Of a DNA stretch of 64,000 bases, positions 41,294-59,290 are shown in pieces. Location of the stretch: NCBI RefSeq assembly GCF_027409185.1, contig NC_084478.1, positions 83,993,624-84,057,623 of the forward strand. Direction: 5' to 3'. Position 1 is the first letter of the stretch; each line of letters opens with the position of its first letter. The notes under the pieces are model-generated. The model was not told where the DNA came from, did no database searches, and saw only the letters and a list, made by a program, of their open reading frames with translations. The DNA is from Cynocephalus volans. Taxonomy: Eukaryota; Chordata; Mammalia; Dermoptera; Cynocephalidae. A program made the position numbers and the translations under genes.

Positions 41294-41887
41294 TGTCAAG
41301 CTACACGACTATGCCAGTTGTCAGGTTGAGGCAATAGCTACACTAATTGTACGGCTAGGCAGTTTCATAACTAAAGCCAAAATGTTTCATTATTTTAGTT
41401 ATACTAAGTTTCCATTTGTATTGTCAAGGCTAGGGCTCAGATCCTTTAAACCCATTGTACAGACTGGGTCACCAGACCCCTCACATGCAGGTCCATGCTA
41501 GGTAACTGGGAAAGATCCTGGGAGCCATTGACAGATGACACAAGCTCAGTCCTCAGCAGCAGTAGCAGCTTACAGCAGATCCAGCAGTGGTGGCAGTGGC
41601 GGCGGCCTCTTGGAGGGTCCTGGGGATACCGGCAGCAACAGCCTCCAGCAGCAGTAGCAGCCACCCCGTGATCCCCTGGGGGCATCCCAGGGTCGGGGGG
41701 CCTTGTGGATCAGAGCCACTCGTCCTTTATACTTAAGTCCATAACCCAGGACACCTGGGTGCACATGCGCAATTACATTAGACAATAACCAAGGAAAACC
41801 TGGGCGCATGTGCGTATTTACATCAAATACTTGGTAAGATTCTAAACATCTGAGGGGCCGTGACCATTTTCTTATATTTTCCCAACA
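41294..41887 (-). mobile_element. Solo LTR with extended U5, antisense
   Basis: On the minus strand it starts TGTTGGGAAAATATAAG (41887) and ends GTAGCTTGACA (41294). Flanks are ctttt (41289-41293) and ctttg (41888-41892), a 4 of 5 match. It includes a CAG/CTG-rich block at 41545-41665. Beyond the shorter U5 ending (CCGTACA, complement of 41348) it continues with tagtgtagctattg and ACTGGCATAGTCG, PBS-like words that the duplication places inside the LTR. Confidence 0.75.
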
Positions 41888-44021: not shown

Positions 44022-44073
44022 AGGTTGCTAGATAAGATACAGGACACTCAGTTAAATTTGAATTCAGATAAAC
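44022..44073. repeat. Left arm of an old palindromic DNA element
   Basis: aggttgctagataagatac and gttaaatttgaattcagata are mirrored, inverted, by the right end at about 50270-50318 (aatttaattgtgcatcctg, gctaaatctggcaacc). The provirus at 44074-50217 lies between the arms. Confidence 0.65.
44069..44073. repeat. Provirus target-site duplication, left
   Basis: taaac, repeated at 50218-50222. Confidence 0.85.
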
Positions 44074-44531
44074 TGTTGGGAAAATAGAATAATCTAATCA
44101 GGCCCCCTCGCCTTGGGGCAGGTTGGGGGTGGTGCAGCAGTCTTTGTGGGCAGGTTGTGTGTGGGTGGAGTTAGTGCGCTTTTGCAGTGCCATCACATTG
44201 GCTGACTACTGCCTTTGGCGGCCACTGGGCATGCAGCCATGCTTTCCAACCTACAGCTTCCAAGGACCTGTTTGCCAGTTACCTAGCTCATAGACCTGCA
44301 CGTTAGGGGTCTGGTGACCCAGCCTGGTGTGTGAAGGGTTTGTGACCCAGTCTGGACAATGGGCTTGAGCTCCAGACCCGGCCCTAGCTCAACAATTGGC
44401 TGAGTTGGTACAGGATTACGGGCAGGTAAAAGAGCTCCACAATTGGCGACATTGGCAGGATTCTGACAAGAGCCCCAGCTCTACATTTGGCATAGCTGGT
44501 GTGGGATTTCAACATTAGCTGTAGCTGAACA
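44074..44531 (+). repeat. 5' LTR with three PBS-like units in U5
   Basis: Starts TGTTGGGAAAATAG and ends TAGCTGAACA. The ancestral short end (CTAGCTCAACA) lies at 44394. From there to 44531 are three units whose TGG starts are at 44397, 44444 and 44488. The 3' LTR contains the same units, so they are LTR, not leader. An AATAAA signal like that in the LTR at 2585 is missing. Confidence 0.85.
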
Positions 44532-44625
44532 ATTGGTGTAGTTGGCAGGATTCTGACATTAGCCATAGCCGAACAATTGGCGTTGTCTGCGACAGGATTC
44601 TGAGCAGGTGCAGGAGCCGAAAGCC
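44395..44625 (+). repeat. Tandem array of about 45-bp PBS-like units
   Basis: TGG starts at 44397, 44444, 44488, 44534 and 44578 (spacings 47, 44, 46, 44). A typical unit reads TTGGCGTAGTTGGCAGGATT, then CTGACATTAGCC and a TAGCTGAACAA tail. The LTR/leader boundary falls between units three and four, in the same phase as the unit end. Confidence 0.85.
44534..44551 (+). other. Primer-binding site, tRNA-Ser type
   Basis: TGGTGTAGTTGGCAGGAT, two bases after the LTR end. The complement of the tRNA-Ser(AGA/TGA) 3' end as I recall it is TGGCGTAGTCGGCAGGAT, so 16 of 18 match and both differences are CpG-type transitions. Serine-primed class III elements are the HERV-S group. Confidence 0.7.
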
Positions 44626-44860
44626 CTTGAAAGGAGGAAATGTGGCTACTTGTGAATATGCTCTGCCCTATGGCCACTTTCCTGTTGACTGGGATCTGGT
44701 TGCTGCACACTGTACTGCAAGGCAGCATAGACCAGGTATTACAATAAGAAACCCCTTGGGAGGGGGAGGAAATGTGGCTATCTTTGAGCATGTGGTGCCC
44801 GGTGACCACTTTTCTGCTGACTGGAGCCTGGCTACTGCTAACTATGCTGAAAACTGATCA
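44625..44860 (+). repeat. Leader duplication of about 134 bp
   Basis: ggaaatgtggctacttgtga (about 44636) and ggaaatgtggctatctttga (about 44770) begin two diverged copies, each continuing with a gccactttcctgttgactgg-like stretch. The related provirus at 57651 has one copy (about 58344). Confidence 0.7.
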
Positions 44861-46025
44861 AAATTTGCAGCAGAAATCAGAGTTGTTGGAAGCACGGATA
44901 AATGTCTTGGAGGATGACATGCAGTGACTGGCCACTCCTGCCTCTCACACTAGGGAAGACGACCAACCCAGTGGTGAGTTGCGGGAAACCATGTGTTTCC
45001 AGGCATGACCTGTTGTACACAAGAAATTGAGGCACGAGCAGCCTATGGGATGAGACAGACAACTGGTGGGCGATCCACAGGTGACCCAGTTCACTACCTA
45101 TGTCCTGTATACCCTGGTTGAACTGGTTGACTTGGGGAGACAGTTCAGGCAAAAACATGGGGAGACCCTGACTGCTTGGCTGTTGTGGTTATGGGACCTA
45201 GGGGTGGATAGTGTGATATGCTCTGGTGAGGTGGAGACATTGGCCTCCATTACCATATAGCCATCCCTGAGGCAGCAGCTGCAGAATAGCTACAGCTTTG
45301 CACAAGGGTGAGGTAATCACTCCTTGATGGACTGGGTGAATGCAGCTGGCCAAACCATGTGGGCAAATGCTGGAGAACTGTCAAAGATTGTTAGTAAATG
45401 GCAAATGTATGCTGAGTTGGTCCAAATCATTTGGGAGCTGGGGATGCAACAGTCCATGTTTAATGTGAACACTCGTGGCCCAGATGATGAAAACTTTGCA
45501 GGCAGCATGAGAGACATAGTGCTGCAAAATGCCCCATCAAAGTCCTTTGAGTCACTGATGGCCATACTGGCCCCATACATTGGTCGTCCTATACATGAGG
45601 TGACGACCACGATAGCCAGCTTGGGTGAAGTAGAGGATAGAAGACAAGCAAAAGAGGTCCGGAAGGTGGCTAAGACCAAACCCCCAAGAAATACTAGGGA
45701 TTTTATCCTGAAGGGACAAAGCAAGAGTAGCCATAAGTAGATGTGGCTTGACTTGCTTGCAGCAGGGGTTGATAGGAAGAAAACAGACCAGCAGCCAAAT
45801 GCAGTTCTGTTTGCCTTGTGGCAGCAATTGTGCCCTGAACAGTGTTTCACCAAACATCAGGAAACAGGTAGCAAGGTAGACTCAGTGGATTTAAAGGACT
45901 TTTTGGTTGCTCCCGAAGAAGTGGATGAACTGTTCCATTTCAATTGGGGAGCAGGCCAAGGTACTCGTCTTTGGGGGGCAGGCAAGGACCAACGCCTCTT
46001 GTTGAATTGGCAATATACTGGTTGA
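44860..46025 (+). pseudogene. gag remnant
   Basis: The region between leader and protease. 45324-46025 is one frame broken by a single TAG at 45738-45740. The first part (139 codons with its stop) begins MMDWVNAAGQTMWANAGEL. No major homology region or CCHC zinc knuckle is obvious, which is not unusual in decayed class III gag. The part upstream of 45324 is in other frames with stops. Confidence 0.65.
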
Positions 46026-46400
46026 GGACAAATGTGCAGCATGTTTTGGCATTGGTGGATACAGGCACAGAATGTAGCCTGATATATGGCAATCCAGATA
46101 GATTTCCAGGGGCCACAGTTTGTGTAGATGGCTATGGAGGATAGACTGTTAAAGTCAAAGCTGTGTCACTGCCATTGGGCACAGAAAGATTACCTCCTCA
46201 TGTGTATACTGTATATATATTCCCCATAGCTGAATACATCTTGGGTATGGGTGTACTTTATGGTTTGCACCTGCAAACAACAGTTGGAGAGTTTCGGCTG
46301 TGAATATGGACAGTAAAGCCTGTGTTACAAGGATATGCTAAACATGACTCACAGGTGTTACCCAAGCCAAGATGTATAGTTAATGTAAAGCAGTAACGCC
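45944..46400 (+). pseudogene. Retroviral protease remnant
   Basis: ALVDTGTECSLIYGNP gives the catalytic DTG motif at 46058. The frame is offset by -1 relative to gag and is the same as the RT frame downstream. It overlaps the gag frame at about 45929-46025 and is closed by a TAG at 46142-46144. Confidence 0.8.
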
Positions 46401-46435
46401 TACCAGGAGGACATGCAGAGATAAGTGCCACTATA

Positions 46436-47335
46436 TTGGAATTAGAGAAAGTTGGGATTATTCATCCGGCTCAGAGCCCATTTAATGCTCCTGTATGGCC
46501 AGTGAAAAAGCCTGATGGTACCGGGAGAATGACTGTAGATTATCAAGAACTGAACAAAGTAGTGCCTCCTTTGCATGCAGCTGTGCCTTCAGTTCACAAT
46601 TTGATGGATCAGTTGATGAGTCAGCTGGGGGCTTATCATTATGTATTGGACCTTGCAAATGCTTTTTTCTCTATTTCAATCTTGGCTGATAGCCAAGATC
46701 AGTTCAGCTTCACATGGGAAGGAAGACAGTGGACCTTTCAAGTATTGCCCCAAGGTTATCTGTATAGCCCAACCATCTGTCATGGTTTGGTGGCTGGGGA
46801 CCTAGCCAAGTGAACTAGGCCCAGCATGGTTACAGTGTTTCACTACATTGATGATGTGTTACTAACCTCTGATTCTCTTACAGATTTAACTCAGGCAGCT
46901 CCGACACTGTTAAGTCATTTGGAGCAATGTGGGTGGGCTGTGAACACAGCCAAAGTGCAAGGACCTGGGCTGTCAGTCAAATTCCTGGGAGTGGTCTGGT
47001 CAGGTAAGACGAGAGTCATCCCAGAAGCTATTATAGATAAGATACAGGCATACCCTCGACCCACAATGATAGCTCAGCTGCAGACATATTTGGGACTTTT
47101 GGAGTATTGTAGAGCTTTTGTACCCCATGTGACACAAATGGCAAGCCCACTATATGCATTGACAAAGAAAAGAGCCCCCTGGGATTGGACTGAGGAAGTA
47201 GAACAAGCTTACCAGGTTACAAAAAGGGCAATACAGCAAGTACAGGCTTTACAAGTGGTGAATCCCACCAAGCCTTTTGAGTTAGATGTACATATAACCC
47301 AGGAGGGGTTAGAATGGGGTTTGTGGCAGAGATAG
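46436..47335 (+). pseudogene. Reverse transcriptase, one in-frame stop
   Basis: A single frame carries fingers (GRMTVDYQELNKVV), first palm aspartate (LDLANAFFSI), LPQGYLYSPTICHG, the catalytic FHYIDDVLLTSD box and thumb (VKFLGVVWSG) through the connection. The only break is a TGA at 46811-46813 between the LPQGY and YIDD blocks. The next stop is at 47333-47335. This is the best preserved retroviral enzyme in the window. Confidence 0.9.
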
Positions 47336-47639
47336 GATCGATTCCAAACACCTGTAGGACTCCAGTCTCAGCTCTGGAAGGGCACTGAAGTGCGTTATAC
47401 CTTAATAGAAAAGCAGTTAGTAGCTGTATATTCTGCCTTGATAGCCACTGAAGATATCACAGGAACTGCCAAAGTCCTAGTAAGGATGATATACCCCATA
47501 GCAGGTTGGCTGCACACGTGGGCAACTAACTCTAAAACGGGTGTAACTCAGATTCCCACTCTGTCTAAATGGGGAGCATATATAGAACAAAGGAGCACTG
47601 TGTCAATGAGTCCTCTGTCCAAATAGTTGCAAACTGTGC

Positions 47640-48185
47640 TAGGCCCAGTAGAGGTTGTGGAGGAAATTTTGATGCAACTGTTACCCATGGAGGTGGAAGC
47701 TACACTTTTCCATGAGGACAGAGACCTATCACAGAGCAGGCTTGGTATATAGGTGGCTCTAGCATGGGACCCTCAGCATCGTGGACAGCTGTTGCTGTCC
47801 AGCCCTTAACAGATACCATGTGGTATGAAAATGGCACAGGGAAAAGCAGTCAGTGGGCTGAATTGAGAGCAATATGGGTGGTGATAAAAAATGAGCCTGG
47901 GCCATTAACCTTTGTACTGACAGCTGGGCTGTGTACAAAGGTTTAACCCTCTGGATTCCTACTTGGAAATATCAACAATGGATGGTAGGCCACCGACCCC
48001 TGTGGGGACAAGCCATGTGGCAAGATTTATGGGAATTGGGGCATGAGAAAGAAGTAACTCTTTCCCATGTCACAGGACACTTCCACTTAGCCAGTCCAGG
48101 AAATGATGAAGCCGATGCCTTGGCTAAGGTAAGATGGCTGGAGAGAGCCTCAGCTGCTGATGTAGCCCAGTGGTTACATCGATGA
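47640..48185 (+). pseudogene. RNase H remnant
   Basis: 47764-47946 shows SSMGPSASWTAVAVQP and SSQWAELRA (the conserved glutamate). The following block YKGLTLW...HVTGHFHLASPGNDEADALAK is in another frame from 47931, so a frameshift lies near 47915, removing the aspartate region present as FTDSWAVYKG at about 870. Confidence 0.8.
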
Positions 48186-48860
48186 ATGCAGGATGCTGGC
48201 AGTATAAAACCACGTGGATGGTGGCTCAAAGATGGGCCTTGCCTATAAAATGGGAAGGTGTATTGAATGCCTGTCCTGCTTGTCTAGTGTGTGCTCAAGA
48301 GAGTCCACACCACCAGTGCGTGCCCCATACAGATAGGCAAATAACTTGAGGAAAGGTGCCCCTGACTCGATGGCAAGTGGACTTTGTTGTGCTACTGCCA
48401 AGGTCAGAGAATTTCAGATACATCCTCACAGCTGTTGATACGGCTCCTGGCCTTCTGTTTGTGTGGCCTTGTAAGGCCCCAGACCAGCTAAACACTGTGA
48501 AGGCACTGAATAGCCTTATGGCTATGTGTGGTCAGCCTGTAGTCATAGAGAATGATAATGGAACCCACTTTACTGGAATGGGGTTCAGATGTGGGCCTCC
48601 CAGTTGTCCATTCAGTGGAAGTTACATGTGCCATATCCTCCCCAGGTAGTGGGAACGATTAAACAGTAAGATGGCCTTTTAAAAAAGGGACTAAGGCTAT
48701 CTGCCCAACCCCCATCCCTGAAGGGGTGGACATGGCAGTTATGGCCAACAGTCAGGATTCTAAATGAGAAACCCCACAAGGGCGGACCCTCTCCAGTGGA
48801 AGCTCTGTTGCATAGGGCCGTAGCACCTATACAGCTGCAAATCACTACTAAAGATAAGCT
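48186..48860 (+). pseudogene. Integrase remnant
   Basis: WQVDF (first aspartate) and ENDNGTHFTG (second aspartate) lie in 48356-48649. The zinc-finger part upstream has stops. The third catalytic position region (about 48640) is disrupted. RILNEKPHKGG and VEALLHRA at about 48755-48820 continue the C-terminal part in another frame. Confidence 0.8.
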
Positions 48861-48949
48861 TTTGAAGCCAGGATAGGGCAAAAATGGAAATATTCTCTTA
48901 TCAGCCCCAAACTTTTTGCAACAGGGACAGTACAATGGGAATGGCCTTG

Positions 48950-49412
48950 GAGAATAAAAGCCCCCCATATACGCTGGGTTGGCTTAATAGGGCCTTGGGG
49001 AAAAGGATTTGAGGAAACCTTGCAAGTTTCACCTTGGGCGACAAGTACCTGGCCTCCTTGCATAAAGGTAACATGGCCTGGAACAGATAAGCACTCTATT
49101 CCAAAGGGCATGTTTGTATTAAGTACCTGGCCTCCTTGCATAAAGGTAACATGGCCTGGAACAGATAAGCACTCTATTCCAAAGGGCATGTTTGTATTAT
49201 CATTATGGCCAATTATGAGTTCCCCTATACTGTTACATGTAGAACCTACACATCCAACAGTGTTAGTGGATAAAATATGGTATCATGAGCCAGGTAAGAT
49301 ACCTATTCCTGCAGCCATTCTTTCTCAGGATAGCAAACTGCCATGTATCTTGCCAGAGGGGCAAGAACTTCTCCTATTGGTACCAATAACCCTTCTGTCT
49401 TTTCCCCCATAG
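48950..49412 (+). pseudogene. Post-integrase frame with 78-bp internal duplication
   Basis: Homologous to 1825-2220. 49020-49412 is open for 130 codons and keeps KVTWPGTDK, VEPTHPTVLVDK and CILPEGQELLLL. The 78-bp duplication is a multiple of three and keeps the frame. Function unknown, see the entry at 1825. Confidence 0.5.
49043..49198 (+). repeat. Exact 78-bp tandem duplication
   Basis: 49043-49120 and 49121-49198 are identical by eye, both starting aagtacctggcctccttgca and ending gggcatgtttgtatt. The other provirus (around 1980-2055) has one copy. Confidence 0.9.
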
Positions 49413-49719
49413 TATTCTGGCTGCAGGCACTGCACCAGAGTTGACTGGGTACATACATACGTTGGCGTGATCATCTACTGATTATGCATTGAACTTCCCA
49501 TCAGTATGACTGCAGGATTTGCATGGAGGATCACACCAATGGTGACTACTAACTGGACATACGTGGCTAATAGTTAAAAGGAGAGAACTACAAGCCTTAA
49601 GGCATATTGAATGGACAATAGGTTATGTAAATGTAAGGGTCATTTATCCTCGTTAAGGGAACATCGTGGAAGATTCTGAACACATAGATTGTACAGCGAG
49701 GGGTCCTGAAGAGGTGGAT

Positions 49720-50217
49720 TATTGGGAAAATAGAATAATTAAATCAGGCCCCCTCACTTCAGGGCAGGTTGGGGGTGGTGCAGCATTTTTTGTGGGCAGA
49801 TTGTGTGTGGGTGGAGTTAGTGCACCTGTGCAGTGCTGCCACATTGGCTGACTACTGCCTTGGGTGGCCGCTGGGCGTGCATCCATGTTTTCCAACCTAC
49901 AGCTTCCAAGGACCTGTTTGCTGGTTACCTAGCTCATAGACCTGCACGTTAGAGGTCTGGGGACCCAGCCTGGCATGTGTGGGGTCTGGTGACCCAGCCT
50001 GGTATATGAAGGGTTTGTGACCCAGTCTGGACAATGGGCTTGAGGGGTCTGTGAGCTACAGACCCAGCCCTAGCTCGATAATTGCCCCAGTCAGTGCAGG
50101 ATTACAGGCAGGTAAAAGAGCTCCAGAATTGGAGATGTTGGCAGGATTCTGAGAAGAGCCCCAGCTCTACAATTGGCGTAGTCGGTGCAGGATTCCGACA
50201 TTAGCTGTAGCTGAACA
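49720..50217 (+). repeat. 3' LTR with PBS-like units in U5
   Basis: Starts TATTGGGAAAATAG (the usual TG has become TA) and ends TAGCTGAACA, followed by the duplication taaac. U5 units start at 50083 (degenerate), 50130 and 50174; the last, TTGGCGTAGTCGGTGCAGGA, is the closest to the tRNA-Ser complement in the window. No internal region can follow a 3' LTR, so these units must be LTR sequence. Confidence 0.9.
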
Positions 50218-50318
50218 TAAACAATGAATAATTTTTTCATGTAAGTATGAATATTGCATGGATTTCTAAAACAAATTTAATTGTGCATCCTGCATTACTT
50301 GCTAAATCTGGCAACCGT
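50218..50318. repeat. Right arm of the old palindromic DNA element
   Basis: Begins taaacaatgaataatttttt and ends gctaaatctggcaacc. Together with 44022-44073 it rebuilds a palindromic element once one taaac is removed. Confidence 0.65.
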
Positions 50319-57159: not shown

Positions 57160-57475
57160 TGTATTGCTAGAGCAATTGTCAGAATCCTGCTGATGTAGCC
57201 AAACGTATTGCTAGGTTAGGGCTCACAGACCCTTCAAACCCATTATACAGACTGGGTCACAGACCTCTCATATGCCTGGCTGGGTCACCAGACCCGTCAC
57301 ACACAGGTCCACGAACTAGGTAATTGGGAAAGATCCCAGGAGCCATTGGCAGATGAGAGGAGGTCAATCAGCAGCAGCAGTAGCCTCCCAGAGGGTCCTG
57401 GGAGTCCTGGCAGCAATAGCTTGCAGCAACAGTAGCAGCAGCAGCAGTAGTAATAACAGTGAGGCCTAGTAAGAA
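57160..57475 (-). repeat. Truncated LTR 3' part, antisense
   Basis: Left end TGTATTGCTAGAGC (minus-strand end GCAATACA), then a PBS-like GGCTACATCAGCAGGATTC (minus), U5/R and a CTG-rich block ending near 57465. U3 is missing, so it is 5'-truncated. Confidence 0.65.
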
Positions 57476-57650: not shown

Positions 57651-58163
57651 TGTAGGGAAAATGAAAGATAAATGGTCAGGGTCCCTTGGGGGTTTGGAAT
57701 CTTGCTGAGCATTTGATGTAAGTATGCATGTGTGCCCAGGTGTTCCTTGGTTGTCTAATGTAATTGCATATATGCACCCAGGTGTCCTGGGTTATAGGAC
57801 TTATATGGCTCTGATCCAGTGTCCCCTTGCCCCCGGGATGTCCCTGAGGAGGCCATGGGGAGGTCACTACCACTGCCACTGCCACCGCTGCTGGATCTGT
57901 AAGCCGCCACCACTGCCGAGGAAGCTGAGGACTGAGCTCTTGTTGTCTGCCAATGGATCCCAGGACCTTTCTCAGTTACCTAGCGTGGGCCTGCATGTGC
58001 GGGGTCTGTTGACCCAGCCTGGCATGTGAGGGGTCTGTGACCCAGTCTGTACAACGGGTTTGAAGGGTCTGTGAGCCCTAGCCCTAGCAATGCAGTTGGA
58101 AAACTTAGTGTAACTAAAATAATGAAACATCTTGGCTTTAGTTATGAATTGCCTAGCCCTACA
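57651..58163 (+). repeat. 5' LTR of the chimeric provirus
   Basis: Starts TGTAGGGAAAATGAAAG and ends GCCTAGCCCTACA. CTG/CCG-rich block at 57845-57935. The TATA region is degenerate (ttatatggc at about 57802). Confidence 0.9.
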
Positions 58164-58165
58164 AC

Positions 58166-58183
58166 TGGCATAGTTGGCAGGAT
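58166..58183 (+). other. Primer-binding site, tRNA-Ser type
   Basis: TGGCATAGTTGGCAGGAT, two bases after the LTR end, 16 of 18 to the recalled tRNA-Ser complement. Further degenerate copies begin near 58206, 58239 and 58281. Confidence 0.7.
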
Positions 58184-58329
58184 TCCGACAATAACCCCAA
58201 CTAGACAATTAGTGTAGATATTGCTGTAACCCAACAACTGGTGTAGTCATAGCAGGATTAGGCAGGTAAAAGAGCCTGGCAATTGGCATCTTGGGTAGGA
58301 TGCCAAGCAGGTAAAGAAGCAGAAAGCTG

Positions 58330-59290
58330 CTTGGGAGGGGGAGGAAATGTGGCTACCCTTCAGTATGTGGTGCTCTGTGGCCGCTTTCCTTTTTGATGGG
58401 GTTGGGCTGTTGCTCACTGTCCTGTGAGCTAACATGGACCAGAAACCCCATGAAGCAGCGTGGCTTTGACATTTGCAGCAGCAAGCAGACAGGTTGGAAA
58501 TGCAAGTACATGCCCTGGAGGCTGAAGTACAGCAACAGGTCACTCCTGCTTCTGACACTGGGGACAGTGATGAACCCGATGGGTTGGGTGAGACTGCATC
58601 TCCTGAAATGAGCTGTTGCTCATCAGAAAGTGAAGCATGAGCAGCCTATGGGACTGGGTGGACTGGTAGGCAATCCACAGGTGACCCAATTCACTACCTA
58701 TGTCCCATATACCCAGGTCGAATTGGTTGACTTGGAGAAACAGTAAAGTGGCAGAAACAGGGAGAGCTCCTGGCTGCTGCAGTTATGTGACCTAGGGGTG
58801 GATGGTGTAACGTGCTCTGGAGACAAAGTAGTAAACACATGTCATGTTTGTCCAAAGGCAAATATCTCACCAGGTGCCACTTAAACCTAAGAAGACTTGG
58901 AGGGTGCTGCATAAACCCAATGGCTCACTGGGTACCATATAAACCCAAGAAAAGAGTGCCACATGCAGTTGGGCAGATGACCCGAGGATGGGTGCCTCTG
59001 CAGAATTTCAAGTATGTTTTCACCTGGGGAAAAGGTGGAGAAAACAGCCTCTATTACTATGCACCTGTCTCTGTGGCAGTGGTTATAGGATAGCTGCAGA
59101 TATGCATAAGGGCAGGACAACCACTCCTTAATGGGGTGGGTGAATGCAGCTGTTTGAACCGTGTGGGTGAGCACTGCAGAGCTGGCTGAGACTGTGAGTG
59201 AATAGCAGGTATATGCCAAGCTGATTCAAGTAATTCAAGAGCCAGGATGGGGCAGCTAGATGTTAGTAGTCAAGACAATGGGAGAAAGGC
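58330..59290 (+). pseudogene. gag leader/gag remnant
   Basis: ggaggaaatgtggctaccct, tggaaatgcaagtacatgcc and ggtcactcctgcttctgaca parallel 44760-44950 of the fuller provirus, and acccaattcactacctatgt parallels 45078-45100. There are many stops and no frame above 100 codons. Confidence 0.7.

Follow-up and report, generated by a model that had tools for sequence, protein, structure and literature searches.

The window, a stretch of 64,000 nucleotides of the Cynocephalus volans genome, contains an old and broken endogenous retrovirus (ERV) provirus at 44074-50217. It is flanked by TAAAC target-site duplications (TSDs) at 44069-44073 and 50218-50222, which match at 5/5 positions by reading of the sequence, and remnants of a reverse transcriptase (RT) lie inside it. 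These features, the LTRs, RT pieces and array units located below, and the related piece at 57958-58564 are on the forward strand. The 5′ LTR (44074-44531, TGTTGGG...GAACA) was delimited by alignment to the 3′ LTR and by the TSD, and has three units of a repeat within its end. The 3′ LTR (49720-50217), which was set by alignment to the 5′ LTR and by unit scores, also has three internal units (50083, 50130 and 50174). The K2P distance between the two LTR bodies is 0.095. Broken RT pieces were found at 46436-47332 with PF00078, the two open reading frames being searched apart (E = 4e-8 and 2.2e-7). The family to which the provirus belongs has paired LTRs with a TSD, an RT, and a primer-binding site (PBS) for a host tRNA directly after the 5′ LTR, as ERVs do. 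Its TSD is 5 bp long, the defining value of class III ERV-L/HERV-S-like elements. When the RT of the window was compared with solved sequences, the best matches were Gag-Pol and RT p80 entries (85-81 bits), which we take to be of the murine-leukaemia type, and the others reached at most 48 bits; the set compared contained no recognised ERV-L.

An older related LTR/leader piece was found by alignment at 57958-58564 (about 66% identity in the longest match), and several PBS-like units were seen in it by eye. Other LTR-like fragments occur on both strands of the window, at 2907, 35084, 41420-41523, 43135, 54582, 55045, 55245, 57160-57331 and 60570. In the leader of the provirus, two diverged direct copies of a stretch of about 105 bp (44619-44720 and 44748-44852, 72% identity) stand just after the PBS array, and cross-matches to this repeat occur in other copies. 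A 78-bp unit stands twice, at 100% identity, at 49043-49199 in this provirus of about 10% LTR divergence; it is either a recent duplication or an effect of the assembly. The 3′ LTR holds 2.7 copies of a 29-bp tandem repeat (49954-50030), and the 5′ LTR has one copy fewer.

The five-unit array in the window

The initial annotation had described five TGG starts across the boundary of the 5′ LTR and the leader, and reading of the sequence placed them exactly at 44397, 44444, 44488, 44534 and 44578. They begin five PBS-type units, which span 44397-44605 with TGG spacings of 47, 44, 46 and 44. The units are in tandem as described, but not of 45 bp each: they are unequal, and across the family units measure about 47, 25, 33 and 44-50 bp. 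TRF detected only the last two copies (44512-44603). The 3′ LTR ends ..GAACA after its third unit, where the 5′ copy continues AT-TGG. Thus, units 1-3 belong to U5, unit 4 occupies the PBS position and the leader contains unit 5. Together with the TAAAC TSD, this bears out the proposal of three units in the LTR, a fourth (44534) that serves as the working PBS and a fifth beyond it.

The first three units are decayed. Unit 1 (module A, 44397-44443) and unit 2 (module D type, 44444-44487) were assigned as decayed PBSs in U5 by sequence reading and unit scores, the module letters being labels given by eye. Unit 3 (44488-44531), also in U5, was assigned by unit scores and by comparison with other LTRs; its counterpart in the 3′ LTR (50174) is a PBS for tRNA-Ser(AGA/TGA) with a 2-nt insertion. 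The working PBS (44534-44551) matches the host tRNA-Ser(AGA/TGA) at 18/18 positions when CpG sites are allowed to have changed from C to T or from G to A. The last unit (44578-44605), identified by unit scores and a motif search, is a PBS-like leader copy with an inserted TGCGA-type stretch. Its motif is present in 21/21 five-prime copies, and the insertion is absent in some of them, such as L020, L021 and L026.

Against the PBS of tRNA-Ser(AGA/TGA), the units scored 19, 24, 18, 32 and 28 in order. In the shuffled control (best score per region, 210 shuffles), the mean was 11.0, the 95th percentile 16 and the maximum 19. The expectation that the units surpass shuffled sequence therefore holds for the five in register, but units 1 and 3 singly were not above the highest shuffle (19).

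LTR ends and leaders in other copies

We analyzed the window together with 20 loci of about 9.9 kb and 68 short pieces of the same 2.81-Gb genome, all chosen by likeness to the window. Twenty-one proviruses (window included) were mapped, and 48 LTR tails were compared. L011 and L014 (3′ LTR not found) and L018 and L028 (TSD not convincing) were excluded. Among 39 of the short loci, L035, L037, L040, L057 and L059 (5′ LTRs), L043, L045 (a duplicate of L044), L048, L049 and L064 were left out of the tails. L044 and L045, nearly identical including their flanks, represent a segmental duplication on a single contig, with about 0.9 Mb between them. L073-L089 supply no tail themselves, and two of them gained a 3′ partner. 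Twelve 3′ LTRs were sought at a guessed distance; nine were missed, L096 and L098 were used, and L092 was without a TSD. In the TSD survey of 19 loci, a 5/5 duplication at an ACA-like end was present in 15 and a 4/5 one in L026 and L027, and none was convincing in L018 and L028; the LTR start itself was searched in L013, L017 and L025, and two candidate ends were considered in L017 and L022. For the 31 tails outside this TSD-search set, the ends were placed by the ..ACA end motif. TSDs of 4/5 were found in L036, L038, L051, L054, L058 and L067 (L038 and L054 read by eye), and L039, L041, L042, L046, L063 and L066 have no TSD of their own. In 17 of the 18 loci with both LTRs (L009-L028), the LTR starts are 2.0-3.1 kb apart, versus 5.6 kb in the window; the short-spaced copies are probably the non-autonomous majority form.

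Each of the 21 five-prime regions contained one to six units scoring at least 14, and 20 of them at least two (L028 one, L019 two), at a threshold that is lenient, since it lies below the 95th percentile of the shuffled maxima (16). In 20/21 proviruses, all but L017, a unit start directly follows the mapped 5′ LTR end, in agreement with the earlier claim that the LTR end is in register with the repeat. The array part within the 48 tails ranges from 0 (L036, 4/5 TSD) to 201 bp and comprises 0 to 7 junctions (shuffled tails, mean 0.72), so that the copies do not nearly all share one unit number. Junctions common to the longest LTRs are at 23, 70, 95, 128 and 178. Thirty of the 48 tails end at 25, 67-74, 93-98, 127-133, 168-180 or 223-226, and the other 18 (50, 89, 101-120, 138-162 and 187-188 bp) lie outside these nested classes and have other module orders. 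LTRs had been expected to grow in 45-bp steps; length classes at unit steps were indeed found, but the steps are 25, 33 and 44-50 bp.

When each shorter LTR was set against its best longer relative, the end of the shorter one was ≤3 bp from a junction of the longer one in 27/45 cases versus 7.5 expected (nominal p = 4e-11), a value that is too small because 31 ends were placed by the ..ACA motif and the junctions carry CA. The same test on the 16 tails with TSD-search ends gave 7 versus 2.7 expected (p = 0.01). For L012, L023, L058 and L069, the end is 5 bp away from a junction. LTRs of the A+D class (L020, L053, L062, L068, L072 and L096) stop exactly at the start of the third unit of the window LTR, which looks like an A+D LTR that absorbed its former PBS.

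The more the two LTRs of a provirus have diverged, the shorter is its array (rho -0.49, p = 0.033, n = 19), so that longer arrays are found in younger proviruses. The value was rho -0.64 (p = 0.004) without L017, and rho -0.52 (p = 0.048) without L009, L016, L017 and L027. LTR growth as predicted is consistent with this trend (rho -0.49, p 0.03), which was obtained on copies selected for their resemblance to the window. The tree of LTR bodies has hardly any resolution (11/59 branches starred). For all class labels it required 36 changes versus a shuffled mean of 44.9 (0/200 shuffles as low), partly because paired LTRs share a label. For single classes, the number of shuffles as low, of 500, was 1 for ABCD, 53 for ABC, 50 for ABCDE and 241 for AD; classes A, AB and CD (500/500) and AD were not clustered beyond shuffles in this tree.

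The leaders of the 21 proviruses contain one to about five units, most often two. The distance from the LTR end to a fixed leader anchor is 57-58 bp in 3/21, 99-112 bp in 11/21 and 147-148 bp in 2/21; single values are 115 (L017, uncertain), 166 (L010), 178 (L016), 192 (L009) and 213 bp (L026), those of L016 and L009 being ambiguous. The initial annotation had predicted that the unit number in the leader changes inversely with that in the LTR. No correlation was found (LTR tail versus leader, rho -0.21, p = 0.37, n = 21). Since the leader does not shrink with LTR growth, duplication must refill the array as it is consumed.

A unit that serves as working PBS or leader in some copies lies in U5 of others, as had been supposed; the same module thus has two roles. 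In L026, whose LTR tail has one unit, and in L010, the leader unit adjoining the LTR is the working PBS with a module A spacer and has 1 mismatch to the tRNA over 18 nt. This spacer fits the first LTR module better than the last in 33/38 (L026) and 30/38 (L010) comparisons, and module A inside the LTRs of other copies is more decayed. A likeness also exists between the module A spacer and the one that follows the last unit (mean score 16.9 versus 11.0 shuffled). Judged from these likenesses, the array may have originated by duplication of the LTR end, the PBS and the leader start. Likeness of the spacer to the LTR end preceding the array is weak (18/46 copies beat 95% of shuffles, median 0.13).

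tRNA-Ser types matched by the units

Comparison with the host's own tRNA-Ser genes showed that the units fit them. Genes with the 3′ end GCCGACTACG were called by ARAGORN as TGA in L029 and L031 and as AGA in L032; L030 was not called. The tRNA-Ser (AGA) of L033 ends CTACA. Two tRNA-Ser(CGA) genes, L103 and L104, have different acceptor stems. The three tRNA-Ser PBSs are alike at both ends, and their middle heptamers are TAGTCGG (AGA/TGA), TCACGAA and CTGTGAG. A tRNA pattern with terminal Ns yielded no tRNA types.

With CpG decay forgiven, the TCACGAA-type (CGA) PBS was found at ≤1 mismatch in 22/48 tails and the CTGTGAG-type (CGA) PBS in 7/48, and some internal CGA-type units match at 0 mismatches. 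The AGA/TGA type was rejected as the source of all internal units, since it was found at ≤1 mismatch in only 1/48 tails (13/48 at ≤2), versus 22/48 at ≤1 for one CGA type. Twenty other PBSs (including 2 from PMC8775094) matched 0/48 tails at ≤2 mismatches; at ≤3, two of the 20 matched a few tails (Leu 1/48, His 3/48). A fourth Ser-like host 3′ end matched 3/48 tails at ≤2 mismatches and 11 at ≤3. When the heptamers were permuted (290 permutations), the observed count was reached by 3 for AGA/TGA, 0 for the first CGA type and 8 for the second; some permuted heptamers resemble real ones, so that this control is weak for two of the three types. Modules D and E match none of the identified tRNAs, and of the 46 last internal units, 29 have >2 mismatches to each of the three types with no indels allowed.

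The working PBS is of the AGA/TGA type (≤2 mismatches) in 15/21 proviruses. At the remaining working sites, the last unit stands in L022, L059 and L087, and the mapping is uncertain in L009, L016 and L017. The median mismatch cost was 1 for the working PBS (16 units) and 3 for the last internal unit (46 units; p = 7.5e-9). For this fit of working units to the tRNA, L009 was taken by its three-unit reading, L016, L017, L022, L059 and L087 were left out, and L026 entered only the median-cost comparison. Among the 21 mapped proviruses, no CGA-type working PBS was found in a firmly mapped one. In the ambiguous mappings of L009 and L016, a TCACGAA-type unit is at the working site with 1 and 0 mismatches, respectively. 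Both are among the older proviruses (K2P 0.157 and 0.151), and a CGA-type working site in them would be the earlier stage that the model below predicts.

The PBS is the part of a provirus that is rewritten from the tRNA. Thus, each CGA-type unit in U5 either was a working PBS at some time or is a copy of one that was. The internal matches to three tRNA-Ser acceptor types, which the earlier reading did not contain, are the strongest evidence that the internal units are former PBSs.

Origin of the array and comparison with known systems

Most probably, the end of U5 in this ERV family is made up of stacked, fossil primer-binding sites. A unit consists of a PBS and a short spacer ending ..ACA, and the junction can double as LTR terminus and PBS start. 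Since a unit ends in ACA, a usable LTR end results at the junction. Replication would duplicate units, by RT slippage or by misaligned strand transfer. When the tRNA primes at a downstream copy, the upstream stretch including the old PBS would enter minus-strand strong-stop DNA and hence U5 of both LTRs, and the new working PBS would be rewritten from the tRNA. LTRs would gain units and lose some by deletion, with net growth over time, a direction that we infer from the age correlation (p 0.03-0.05, or 0.004 without L017). Each internal unit would record the tRNA-Ser that primed in its working period. The end of an LTR is determined by the start of minus-strand synthesis. LTRs will therefore vary in length where the leader offers several usable PBSs. 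This established setting of retroviral LTR ends points to downstream priming as the cause, and the positions of the LTR ends suggest that two PBSs may have started DNA synthesis in one system. From the downstream-priming model of the initial annotation, the copies of a tRNA-Ser PBS, the register, the length classes, the dual roles and the age trend are retained, whereas the uniform 45-bp steps and the inverse leader count are abandoned. We also lean towards a ratchet, in which a bypassed duplicate PBS is locked in U5, the U5 end is a time-ordered record of primers and the LTR boundary is movable. In this order, AGA/TGA-like modules would come first and CGA types next, with AGA/TGA at the working site.

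The variation could also have come from plain tandem-repeat slippage within U5, with a fixed PBS and an LTR boundary that never shifts relative to it. A two-unit leader that is kept in 11/21 proviruses while the LTR tails vary agrees with such slippage, as do the LTRs of L024, which differ from each other as expected. However, there are leaders of one unit (L022, L059 and L087), of three (L025 and L035) and of more (L010 and L026), and a PBS unit inside the LTR implies priming downstream of a PBS. Moreover, the different tRNA-Ser sequences in the internal units argue for several PBSs that were written at different times and then absorbed. We thus regard slippage alone as a rather unlikely explanation. 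Change of the integrated copies in host DNA, through unequal recombination or replication slippage, is still less probable. Within a provirus, the tails of the two LTRs differ by no more than 3 bp in 16/21 cases, by a mapping that takes the best-fitting 5′ end and so favours agreement, whereas tails range from 67 to 224 bp between proviruses; this agreement indicates that most of the variation predates integration. The tails differ by >3 bp in the other five (L010, L016, L017, L020 and L024), as change in host DNA would produce; these may result from deletions that came later or from slippage during the second strand transfer. L009 has tails of equal length, but by eye the final bases of the one unit in its 3′ LTR match the third 5′ unit better than the first, and this LTR may once have had three units.

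It is very hard to believe that the units are a regulatory or packaging repeat resembling tRNA-Ser by chance. Modules D and E and the last unit do fit the tRNA imperfectly, and units 1 and 3 of the window are no better than the best shuffle. In contrast, units start directly after the LTR end, and matches at 0-1 mismatch were found to three host tRNA-Ser types and at ≤2 to none of the 20 other PBSs.

If the stack of former PBSs is real, the 3′ end of an LTR is not fixed over evolutionary time, and the family would be a natural case of multiple-PBS priming. Past primer choice would also be preserved in it as a fossil record that makes the history of tRNA use readable; as a speculation, escape from tRNA-fragment silencing could perhaps be read from it as well. 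Annotation that assumes a fixed LTR length would misread such families. The literature search, which most subscription papers lie outside, found no precedent for a natural PBS array inside an LTR, and novelty is unproven.

In the dual-PBS retroviral vectors of Voronin and Pathak (2004), to judge by the title, two PBSs on one RNA are reportedly both able to start reverse transcription. Those vectors were engineered, whereas the PBSs of the present family are natural, repeated and heritable. HERV-S, a class III ERV with a serine PBS, resembles the present family in its tRNA-Ser PBS after the LTR, and the same is true of CERV 40 and XtERV-S. In the parts of the reports considered here, CERV 40 is described as a class III ERV with a serine PBS (PMC1779541), and XtERV-S as a class III ERV with a PBS for tRNA-Ser(AGA/TGA) (PMC8278194), the type of most working PBSs in the present family. 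One PBS is described for each of the two in those parts (PMC1779541, PMC8278194), whereas the present family has an array inside the LTR. Tandem repeats of LTRs that possibly regulate transcription are described in a portion of PMC3601003; these lie in U3, whereas those of the present family are PBSs at the U5 end. For SERV, and for VL30 as cited there, the sections considered of PMC8775094 describe PBS switching, with different tRNAs used within one family. The PBS is replaced in those elements as so described, whereas in the present family the old PBSs remain in U5.
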